Shown in pieces: positions 4,631 through 6,954 of a DNA stretch of 64,000 nucleotides. A program made the translations under genes and the position numbers. The DNA comes from Rhodobacter sp. (GTDB lineage: Bacteria > Pseudomonadota > Alphaproteobacteria > Rhodobacterales > Rhodobacteraceae): the NCBI GenBank assembly GCA_027484145.1, contig JAIXUH010000027.1:1-64000 (forward strand), read 5' to 3'. The notes below the pieces were generated by a model. It did not search any database, was not told where the DNA came from, and worked only from the letters and a program-made list of their open reading frames with translations. Positions within the stretch are counted from its first letter, which is position 1, and each line of letters starts with the position of its first letter.

Positions 4631-5044
4631 ATGTTGCAACCGAAACGGACAAAGTTCCGCAAACAGCACAAAGGCCGTATCCACGGCGAAGCCAAGGGCG
4701 GCTTCCTGCTGAACTTCGGCTCTTACGCGCTGAAGGCCACGGAACCCGAGCGTGTGACGGCACGTCAGATCGAAGCGGCCCGCCGCGCGATCACCCGCCA
4801 CATGAAGCGTCAGGGCCGCGTCTGGATCCGGATTTTCCCGGATCTGCCGGTCACCGCAAAGCCGATCGAAGTGCGTATGGGTAAAGGTAAGGGCGGGGTC
4901 GACCGTTGGGTCGCCAAAGTGAAGCCCGGCCGTATCATGTTCGAAATCGACGGCGTCGCCGAAGATATCGCCCGTGAAGCCCTGCGCCTTGGCGCCATGA
5001 AACTGCCGGTCACCACCCGCGTCGTTCTGCGCGAAGACTGGTAA
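4631..5044 (+). CDS. rplP: 50S ribosomal protein L16
   Basis: A 137-residue L16, which positions the A-site t[19 protein letters not shown] opens the protein and [13 protein letters not shown] is the conserved loop. Arg82 here aligns with E. coli Arg81, which is hydroxylated by the 2OG oxygenase YcfD. The next gene downstream encodes a different 2OG-oxygenase-like protein. A strong terminator follows directly, so rplP ends the rplB-rplP block. Confidence 0.98.
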
Positions 5045-5048
5045 GCAT

Positions 5049-5071
5049 GGTGCGTTGAAAACGCACCCTAC
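5049..5071. repeat. GTAGGG-type short palindromic element, copy 1
   Basis: An imperfect inverted repeat, GGTGCGT then a 5-nt loop then ACGCACCCTAC, directly after rplP. Its right arm ends in CCCTAC. Two other intergenic elements (17151-17176 and 29352-29377) have the same CCCTAC end, and the third shows the full GTAGGG...CCCTAC symmetry, suggesting a dispersed repeat family. Confidence 0.5.
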
Positions 5072-5078
5072 ATATCAG

Positions 5079-5107
5079 GCCCCTGCTGGAAACAGCGGGG
5101 GCTTTTT
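5079..5107 (+). terminator. Intrinsic terminator after rplP
   Basis: A 10-bp stem (5079-5088 with 5093-5102, one G-T pair) with a GAAA tetraloop, followed by five T residues. It separates rplP from the next gene and breaks the ribosomal operon between L16 and L29. Confidence 0.85.
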
Positions 5108-5124
5108 CAAATCTGGAGCTTGCC

Positions 5125-5745
5125 ATGCCCACCACACCGCTGTTCGTCACCCGCCTCTACCGCGCCAAACTGAATGATCTGGCCAAGAAAAAGGTGGATT
5201 ACGAAGAACTTGCCATGTCCTGCAACGCGATTGCCGAGGATGACGAGGCCGGGCAGGAGTGGTGCGAGACCAACGGCTATCCGGGCTATACCTCCTATGC
5301 CTCGCTCGACGATCTGCCGTGGCGCTTTCCCATCTTCAAGGCGCTGGAGGCGGCACTCGACAAACACGTTGCCGCGTTTTGCGACGATCTGGCCTTTGAT
5401 CTGGACGGCAAGAAGCTGAAGCTGAATGCGCTGTGGATCAACATCCTGCCCGAAGGCGGCACCCACGCCAGCCACATCCACCCGCATTCGGTGATTTCCG
5501 GCACCACCTATGTGCAGATGCCCGAGGGCACATCCTCGCTTAAACTCGAAGATCCGCGCCTGCCGATGATGATGATGTCCCCCCTCCGCCGCAAAGACGC
5601 GCCCGAGGAGTTGCGCCAGTTCGTCTATGTGCAACCCATCGTTGGCGACGTGCTGATGTGGGAAAGCTGGCTGCGCCACGAGGTGCCGATGAACATGTCG
5701 GAAGAAGAGCGTATCTCGGTCAGCTTCAACTATGGGTGGGCTTGA
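5125..5745 (+). CDS. 2OG-Fe(II) oxygenase-like protein (TIGR02466-type)
   Basis: A 206-residue protein resembling the putative 2-oxoglutarate/iron oxygenase family of TIGR02466. The C-terminal half has the expected double-stranded beta-helix motifs: HIHPHSVISGTTYVQ (proximal His residues, about 115-130) and GDVLMWESWLRHEVPM with the distal His, then RISVSFNYGW with the Arg and Ser that usually bind 2OG. The substrate is unknown. It lies between rplP and rpmC, behind the rplP terminator, with SD CTGGAG. Closeness to L16, a known hydroxylation target in other bacteria, is suggestive only. Confidence 0.75.
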   Translation: MPTTPLFVTRLYRAKLNDLAKKKVDYEELAMSCNAIAEDDEAGQEWCETNGYPGYTSYASLDDLPWRFPIFKALEAALDKHVAAFCDDLAFDLDGKKLKLNALWINILPEGGTHASHIHPHSVISGTTYVQMPEGTSSLKLEDPRLPMMMMSPLRRKDAPEELRQFVYVQPIVGDVLMWESWLRHEVPMNMSEEERISVSFNYGWA

Positions 5746-5827
5746 GTGGGTCTGAGCCTTCCTCGGTTGTTTCAATTCAAGCCTATAGTACCTATATGTG
5801 TAGCCTACCTTGATACAGGAGCATGGG

Positions 5828-6559
5828 ATGATTTTCGATGAGATTGATTTTTCGGGTCTCCCAAAGAAGCGAGAAGAGGCCTTTACAGCCTTTGTCGCGG
5901 GCATAAGCCGCGAATACAATGACAAGGTTCAAGTTGATCGGCGGACCTATTCCGACAGAGACGGAAACTACGAGGGATCCTATGAGCCCGAGCGATCTTT
6001 CGTGACCGCCATCTTGGCATTCTTGGATGAATACGGAATCGAAGCTGACGTGTTGGATATCTCAGAACTTTCGAATGATGAGTTTGCAGGCCATTTCGGT
6101 CGTTTCAAATCTAAAGTTGAATATCTTACCACCCGCTTCAAGCTCCGCCAGCACCGAGTGGAATCTGACACGATAGGTACGCTTGTCTCTATCGACAGCG
6201 ACTACAAGACCGAGATCGGCAAGCTTCTCCTTACGATAAAGAAGATTGTCAGCCAAGAAGTGAACGACGAAAGAAAACGCGACAATATAATGACGAAGAT
6301 TGCAAGCTTGCAGTCCGAGATAGATAGAGACCAAACTACAATTGATGCGTTGTTCGGACGCATGGTTGATCTATCTGCGGCGATTGGCAAGGCCGCTGAC
6401 AATCTTGAACCCCTGATGGATAAGCTGGAGCGAGTAAAGAAACTCTTTTGGGAGGCGCCCAGAAAAGTGGAGCAGTTGCCGAAGCCAGATCGGCCAAAGT
6501 TGATCACAAAAGAAAAAGAACAAAAACCGGCTTCGATGGACGATGAAATTCCGTTCTAG
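5828..6559 (+). CDS. Unknown coiled-coil protein with SSB-like C-terminal tip
   Basis: I do not recognise the family. The ATG at 5828 follows an AGGAG by about 7 nt; a TTG at 5810 is also open. The 243-residue product has an N-terminal segment beginning MIFDEIDFSGLPKKREEAF, then a predicted long helical region (about 115-215, heptad-like, rich in Lys, Asp and Glu), a Pro-Lys-rich linker (KVEQLPKPDRPKLITKEKEQ), and the ending MDDEIPF. That ending closely matches the acidic tip of bacterial SSB proteins (E. coli DDDIPF), but no OB fold is present. The codons are visibly more AT-rich than the flanking ribosomal genes, suggesting transfer. Confidence 0.65.
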   Translation: MIFDEIDFSGLPKKREEAFTAFVAGISREYNDKVQVDRRTYSDRDGNYEGSYEPERSFVTAILAFLDEYGIEADVLDISELSNDEFAGHFGRFKSKVEYLTTRFKLRQHRVESDTIGTLVSIDSDYKTEIGKLLLTIKKIVSQEVNDERKRDNIMTKIASLQSEIDRDQTTIDALFGRMVDLSAAIGKAADNLEPLMDKLERVKKLFWEAPRKVEQLPKPDRPKLITKEKEQKPASMDDEIPF

Positions 6560-6650
6560 GGGAAAGATTTGCAGAGTTGAGGGCTAGGCGACACCTAGGT
6601 CCCCAACTTCCCCCTTGCCACCCACCCCCTTCTCCCCTATAGCAGCGCAT

Positions 6651-6680
6651 CCAGCGATTCCGGGCTCCCGGATTCGCTGG
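6651..6680 (+). promoter_or_regulatory. Large hairpin upstream of rpmC
   Basis: An inverted repeat of about 13 pairs with one mismatch (arms 6651-6663 and 6668-6680, 4-nt loop) in the 194-nt gap between the coiled-coil gene and rpmC. Only TTT follows, so it is a weak terminator candidate. It may end the inserted gene or form part of the rpmC leader. No clear promoter is visible in the gap. Confidence 0.45.
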
Positions 6681-6753
6681 TTTCACATTGATCCACCAGA
6701 TCAACGGTAACCCTTCCACGGGGCCGTCTGGTGATTGAGAAAAGGAACACGGC

Positions 6754-6954
6754 ATGAAAGCCGACGAACTGCGGGGCAAGTCCCCTGATCAGCTGCGCGA
6801 TCAGCTGGTCGCGCTGAAAAAGGAAGCCTTCAACCTGCGCTTCCAGGCCGCCACGAACCAGCTTGAGAATACCGCGCGCATGCGTGTTGTCCGCCGCGAC
6901 GCTGCGCGCGTGCTGACCATTCTCAACCAAAAAGCCGCCGAAGCGGCGAAGTAA
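6754..6954 (+). CDS. rpmC: 50S ribosomal protein L29
   Basis: A 66-residue two-helix L29 at the tunnel exit beside L23. [23 protein letters not shown] and [14 protein letters not shown] are the family helices. The SD AAAGGA precedes the ATG. It restarts the ribosomal cluster after the two inserted genes and lies 12 nt before rpsQ. Confidence 0.97.

Follow-up and report, generated by a model that had tools for sequence, protein, structure and literature searches.

A predicted helical protein with an SSB-like C-terminal tip encoded between rplP and rpmC in Rhodobacter sp.

The gene at 5828-6559 of the stretch of Rhodobacter sp. DNA analysed here (64,000 nucleotides, referred to as the window) encodes a protein that ends in the last seven residues of the host's chromosomal SSB and carries this tip on a body predicted to be helical. 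The tip likely docks on the pockets of SSB partners, a judgement drawn from sequence, because the protein has each feature that these pockets read on a predicted flexible tail, and since this tail copies the SSB docking tip the product probably joins the machinery by which the cell repairs and replicates its DNA. None of the libraries searched describes the family; its docking motif, in contrast, is a familiar one. With the chances about evenly balanced, the gene is best explained as a horizontally acquired single-gene accessory element, whose OB-less helical product would occupy SSB-partner pockets by means of a flexible SSB-Ct tail.

The gene and the rplP-rpmC seam

The open reading frame at 5828-6559 is real, and runs intact from an ATG at 5828 to a stop codon at 6557-6559, its sequence giving the protein end PASMDDEIPF. 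The features of the gene, its product and its surroundings are listed below.

5077-5104, + strand: rplP terminator hairpin of 12 pairs with a U-run, left edge of the seam (folding, -24.1 kcal/mol, z -5.8)
5125-5745: 2OG-Fe(II) oxygenase gene (TIGR02466, by NCBIfam), between rplP and the gene at 5828-6559
5817-5821, + strand: ribosome-binding site AGGAG, 6 nt 5' of the ATG (sequence)
5828-6559, + strand: coding sequence, 243 aa, predicted all-helical, SSB-Ct-like C-terminal tip (sequence and homologues)
5870-6451, + strand: helical body, residues 15-208 (AlphaFold2 model, mean pLDDT 75, pTM 0.49), with predicted helices at residues 15-41, 53-68, 83-113, 124-144, 148-165, 172-188 and 194-208
6476-6535, + strand: LPKP segment (residues 217-220), then a variable, predicted-disordered Lys/Pro linker (residues 221-236; pLDDT and alignment)
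6536-6556, + strand: C-terminal tip MDDEIPF, in which the chromosomal SSB ends as well (genome pattern search, SSB comparison and alignment)
6615-6643, + strand: promoter-like TTGCCA-17-TATAGC 5' of rpmC, right edge of the seam (read by eye)
6754-6954: rpmC, 3' of the gene at 5828-6559

The GC content of the gene is 47.5 % (55 % at third positions) against 61.7 % for the window and 55-62 % for six neighbouring genes (66-79 % at third positions), all of which lie above it, in agreement with the earlier observation that it is AT-richer than its neighbours. The original prediction also placed the gene in the ribosomal operon, behind the rplP terminator. The terminator is real and the neighbourhood is one of ribosomal genes; however, the oxygenase gene intervenes, and the gene seems from the sequence to lie in a seam between transcription units, with the rplP terminator to its left and the promoter-like element to its right, and not inside one unit. 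A sequence similar to the promoter-like element was also seen by eye 5' of rpmC in genomes of the same genus. A consensus promoter and terminator scan of 5000-6800 gave nothing better than chance, TTGCCA-17-TATAGC included, a silence that carries little weight because the rplP hairpin, shown by folding, was missed too. No direct repeats that could be the footprint of an insertion flanked the gene within 5700-6760.

The rpmC locus was obtained from 13 of 16 genomes of the genus, the host's own included, and rpmC was placed by script in 10 of these 13, namely the window, one locus with only 0.4 kb upstream (L079) and eight others (L072-L076, L078, L080, L081). The gene was absent from the 1.5 kb 5' of rpmC in all eight, and the oxygenase gene ended 157-201 nt 5' of rpmC in three of them (L074, L076, L078). 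The stretch from rplP to rpmC (window 5045-6753) is variable in the genus, the oxygenase gene being present or absent and the gene at 5828-6559 having been seen only here.

The tip, the linker and the body

The pattern [DE][DE]IPF-stop was found at four places in the 4.97 Mb genome of the host and at none in the backward control. Three of the four places are the ends of SSB genes and the fourth is the window gene; the genome has four SSB genes by Pfam, one of which lacks the pattern. The chromosomal SSB ends in ARPDMDDEIPF, therefore the exact match of the window protein spans seven residues, and the two other pattern-bearing SSBs end in VDRDDEIPF. The tip has the form [D/E]-[D/E]-[D/E]-I-P-F used as a criterion of the SSB family, and it closes only one of the 62 largely non-overlapping window ORFs of at least 100 aa. 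The same pattern was found at 55 places in 41 genomes (own included) against 3 for the control. The SSB-like acidic tip MDDEIPF that had been read from the sequence is thus confirmed as the end of the chromosomal SSB, far above chance, and a chance end was rejected on the genome-wide count of 4 against 0 together with the conservation of the tip in homologues.

The features that such a tip offers to a partner have been described for SSB. In E. coli the SSB tail is a hub that recruits at least 17 partners (excerpt of PMC10018359), and according to excerpts of PMC10164576 the terminal Phe is buried in a hydrophobic pocket of the partner with its carboxylate on a basic lip, the Asp residues contact a basic ridge, and loss of the Phe, or a change of Pro to Ser, weakens or abolishes binding.

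The body of the protein has no significant match among the families of the libraries searched. Pfam, NCBIfam, PHROGs and PADLOC gave no significant family for the window protein (weak matches, best E 0.0097), SSB (PF00436) was not matched in Pfam, NCBIfam or PHROGs, and a sequence search of solved structures returned nothing below E 0.08. PADLOC gave no match for the window protein and, across 30 members, only scattered weak ones (at most two members per model, best E 1.6e-4); a known defence, phage or plasmid family was accordingly set aside, none being significant for the window protein and nothing being consistent over the 30 members. One of the 30 matched phrog_9300, a family of unknown function, at E 2.8e-5, and the window protein did so at E 0.017. 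This weak link is confined to the coiled region and was seen in two of seven genomes or records (9.9e-8 for the record of L095, 0.029 for the host genome) and in one of 14 control genomes.

Both the window protein and a distant member (L097) were modelled as all-helical, with a mean pLDDT of 75 for both and pTM of 0.49 and 0.50, respectively. The fold is provisional because the alignments behind the models are shallow (10 and 9 rows). When the window model, which is of moderate confidence, was submitted to Foldseek, none of 51 PDB and none of 100 viral matches reached E 0.001. A divergent SSB was rejected, with no OB fold in the family libraries, the model or Foldseek, and the helical body without an OB fold that had been expected from the sequence agrees with the all-helical models and the lack of an OB-fold match in Foldseek. 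Predicted disorder (pLDDT below 50) covers residues 221-243 of the window protein, its last 23, and residues 227-250 and 254-256 of L097, so that a flexible tail is predicted for two divergent members and, in the window protein, presentation of the tip after a Lys/Pro linker, as in SSB. The flexible tail and the lack of an OB fold are safer structural points than the fold itself, and the helical family is possibly a new-fold class, lacking the OB fold and built around an SSB tail. Compared with bacterial SSB, the window protein shares the last seven residues and a poorly conserved, predicted flexible linker before them, whereas its predicted helical body is unrelated and no ssDNA-binding domain was found in it.

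Relatives and other carriers of the tip

A single-protein search at E 0.01 gave matches in 12 of 394 genomes of the same family, own included; profile A1 at E 1e-4 raised this to 16 of 394 in the family, and found 11 of 385 in the class, again with the host's own. The broader profile A8 at E 1e-6 matched four of 378 genomes in a phylum sample (own included), all four of the same class, and in the order of G743 only G743 itself among 17 genomes. Named relatives include Emcibacter, Marivita, Denitrobaculum, Aestuariivita and Pseudohalocynthiibacter (8 loci), plasmid relatives were found in Methylosinus, Methylobacterium oryzae, Methylobacterium currus, Methylorubrum and Ensifer, and further ones in four IMG/VR contigs, one of them 67 % identical. 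Phage records gave no match with two query proteins; single-protein scans of viral contigs gave no relative, and one further scan returned only L095 again. The gene was not matched at E 0.01 in the 15 other genomes of the genus, nine of which are at least 90 % complete with low contamination, and this, with the relatives on plasmids and predicted phage contigs, speaks for the horizontal gain that had been proposed. In open-licence PMC full text, titles and the beginnings of abstracts among the matches listed mentioned no such protein.

The tip stands at the end of 17 of 32 assembled rows. L091 and G738, L092 and G029, and L094 and G248 are one record each and enter the count a single time. Outside the 32 rows stand the frame-broken copies G248 (L003/L013, also L094), L089 and L093 and the weak matches L011, L012, L014, L025, L026, L039, L040 and L041. 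Among the 17 tip rows the final six columns have a mean pairwise identity of 79 %, the 25 before them (the linker) 17 % and the core 28 %, which bears out, for rows chosen by their ends, the expectation that the tip would be conserved and the linker not; Pro and Phe in 17 of 17 rows are partly a product of this choice, because the rows were picked by their ends. Most tip rows retain the SSB consensus D-D-[DE]-I-P-F in full. Besides MDDEIPF of the window, the ends are DLDDEIPF (Emcibacter and Marivita), LDDKIPF (Denitrobaculum), YDLDDDIPF (M. oryzae), VEDEDIPF (Ensifer), SDDIPF (Methylosinus), DIDGDIPF (L090), SDDEENPF (L055) and PDDEVPF (L056). Three members were found later, two of full length ending in DLDDDIPF and PDDDIPF and a 73-aa piece that lacks the tip. 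The frame-broken copies G248, L089 and L093 may owe their breaks to assembly error, and in all three the final open piece has the end DDEIPF; among the excluded weak matches, L040 and L041 lack the tip and L026 (re-found as L256) is a tip-less piece.

A tree was built from 31 rows with the last 22 residues removed and the truncated row L096 excluded; five rows are long-branched. All tips fall in one clade of 23 rows (98/98 support), of which 16 carry the tip, the other eight rows have none, and seven tip changes are needed in all. Homologues without the tip had been named as evidence against an SSB-like function of the end, and they do make up 15 of the 32 rows; yet eight of these 15 are the separate clade and the tip clade keeps 16 of 23, so the pattern is one of a tip kept with several losses and not of a chance end. 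The end of the Methylorubrum copy is apparently frameshifted, that of Aestuariivita reads DDIPVDEGS, and L092 has DDIPV followed by extra residues. Since 15 of the 32 rows are tip-less, the body can work, or persist, without the tip.

The same end is carried by proteins of other families. Among 479 neighbourhood ORFs outside the family (483 minus four tip-bearing members or pieces, L089, L093, L257 and L258) it was found in two, an XRE-type HTH regulator and an OLD-family nuclease. The regulator (P0004, L015:4986-5747, - strand) ends in GIDDDIPF and adjoins the Methylosinus copy; relatives of it on Rhizobium and Sphingobium plasmids (P0005 and P0006), 33 % and 31.5 % identical, end in VDDIPF and DEDIPF. 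These regulators resemble the window protein in being non-SSB proteins with a conserved DDDIPF, VDDIPF or DEDIPF end, and differ from it in their HTH DNA-binding domain and body. The nuclease (L257:2555-4279, - strand) ends in SGLDDDVPF, a tip of this kind, and lies within 4 kb of a family member; unlike the window protein it consists of ATPase and TOPRIM domains and is unrelated.

When 29 loci among the 55 pattern places of the 41 genomes were inspected by eye, 23 were SSBs or SSB ends and six were not, the latter being three UvrD/PcrA-type proteins, one protein with DUF736, an unknown one in a frame of 227 codons and a possibly fortuitous frame of 91 aa. The UvrD/PcrA-type helicases of three related genomes (L111 by Pfam, L112 and L126 by likeness) end in ADDIPF or VDDIPF, and the DUF736 protein (L108:1120-1518, + strand) in AVDDEIPF.

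In IMG/VR, at least 81 ORFs end in D-x-D-D-[DE]-I-P-F (80 of 120 stretches). Among the 81 listed, a home-made SSB profile matched 37, six of them by a short stretch only, and left 44 unmatched, two of which belong to the family of the window protein. Pfam, applied to 32 of the 44, gave helicase domains in two, DUF669 in two, UPF0547 in two and single ribbon-helix-helix/HicB and NTPase matches, and no match for at least 16 of the 32; many tip-bearing phage proteins may be unrecognised ssDNA-binding proteins. Two viral-contig proteins look like helicases (L189:11283-13040, - strand, ending in DFDDDIPF; L197:2676-4619, - strand, ending in DLDDDIPF), and a third (L148:3919-4569, - strand) has an Arc/ribbon-helix-helix-like start and the end DLDDEIPF. 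Because it is carried by varied non-SSB proteins in plasmids and phage contigs, the tip appears to be a portable module in mobile elements, and a DDIPF end alone does not mark an SSB.

Genomic settings and possible roles

Several members are found among housekeeping genes. The frame-broken Pseudohalocynthiibacter copy lies between an rplW-like and an rplB-like gene, so named for their likeness to those of the window, the L087 copy follows the ribonucleotide reductase small subunit gene, the L255 copy stands 66 nt after a gyrase/topoisomerase IV A-subunit gene, and the L055 copy adjoins selB. Tip-less members occur 12 and 27 nt after a gyrB/parE-type gene (L067 and L061), between ruvA and ruvB (L070), and between 2-oxoacid dehydrogenase E2 and dihydrolipoamide-dehydrogenase-type genes (L066). 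Members of the wider family are repeatedly lone genes after or between housekeeping genes (L061, L067, L070, L066, L255), and the tip-bearing copies of the window, L055, L063, L087 and L255 lie in housekeeping regions with no recognised defence neighbour.

Other copies have defence-type neighbours. The Ensifer copy is overlapped by an AbiJ_NTD4/PDC-S32 ORF, if the first start codon of that ORF is used; RT-Toprim_I-C lies 0.4 kb from the Denitrobaculum copy; and a PD-T4-5/AbiD-like gene lies 0.2 kb from the Marivita copy (L088) and 0.9 kb from L097. The M. oryzae and M. currus copies are near type IIG restriction and phospholipase-D-family genes, such a pair adjoins the Methylorubrum copy by annotation, and AbiJ is 2.5 kb from the M. 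oryzae copy. A PIN nuclease gene (PIN_12) lies 13 nt downstream of the L257 copy, with the OLD-family nuclease about 3.3 kb away, and an EcoRV-like ORF and a resolvase are near L052. Defence-type genes are common on plasmids and prophages in any case, and these neighbours are listed without a background frequency.

The favoured explanation, in which our confidence is middling, is that the protein competes or tethers where mobile elements and their host are in conflict. The free carboxylate of the Phe, the Pro and the Asp residues would enter the pocket used for SSB by RecO, PriA, RecG, RecQ, HolC or others, and the protein would then compete with SSB for such a partner, or tether the partner to its helical body. 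The net effect, a weaker part of the explanation, may be on how a competing phage or plasmid replicates, restarts or recombines, and a role of this kind in defence or exclusion is suggested because several relatives stand beside abortive-infection, restriction, reverse-transcriptase, OLD-nuclease or PIN genes, on plasmids or on predicted phage contigs.

The tip could also dock on SSB partners to the benefit of its carrier, recruiting restart or recombination factors to phage or plasmid DNA, with the chromosomal copies as remnants, which we consider rather unlikely. The plasmid-like Marivita copy directly follows an RPA-type replication initiator and has a T4SS coupling protein on its contig, and the copies on viral contigs lie about 0.2 kb 3' of a GpA terminase gene at the contig end (L095) and about 1.35 kb 5' of a lambda-type portal, where a capsid gene is also present (L096). 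Excerpts of PMC5928155 describe a phage precedent, the SSB of HK620, which recruits Sak4 by an SSB-like tail, and DUF669 as a phage SSB family. These are mobile-element proteins with a partner-recruiting SSB-like tail, as the window protein may be, but they bind ssDNA, of which the window protein gives no sign in sequence or model; no DNA-binding domain or OB fold was found, many copies are alone among host genes, and no constant replication or recombination partner adjoins them. DdrB of Deinococcus was likewise named among the closest known systems.

It is improbable that the tip is a decoy or sensor, luring invader proteins whose target for binding or attack is the host SSB tail, with the helical body signalling or blocking in response. 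Several defence systems respond to phage SSB (excerpt of PMC10732053), and the defence-type neighbours would fit, but no toxic or enzymatic domain is recognised in the body and no constant effector partner occurs among the loci examined. Less probable again is a C-terminal signal of a different kind (protease, PDZ or stability tag) that resembles SSB by accident; the seven changes on the tree make tip losses common, as such a signal might, but retention of the whole consensus in most tip rows goes beyond a mere hydrophobic end, and in the host genome the pattern is otherwise confined to SSBs. A fortuitous end on a gene that is cryptic or in decay, for which the frame-broken relatives might be cited, is dismissed as very improbable, being contradicted by the genome count with its control of 0, the tree, the intact frame, the ribosome-binding site and the conservation of the tip at 79 % against 28 % in the core.

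More broadly, unrelated bodies may each have acquired the same SSB tail as a portable docking code of alphaproteobacterial mobile and defence genes and phages, by which all of them would address one set of SSB-partner pockets, a proposal made only tentatively. Its bodies would be the helical family, the HTH regulator, the OLD nuclease, DUF736, the phage helicases and the ribbon-helix-helix-like protein, and mobile elements and defence systems would compete with SSB for control of the fork. A mobile family with an SSB tail on a non-SSB body would, under the favoured explanation, be a natural competitor for the SSB hub and, if this is true, would offer a direct route to ask whether phages, plasmids or defence genes use the SSB-partner pocket to control replication and recombination.
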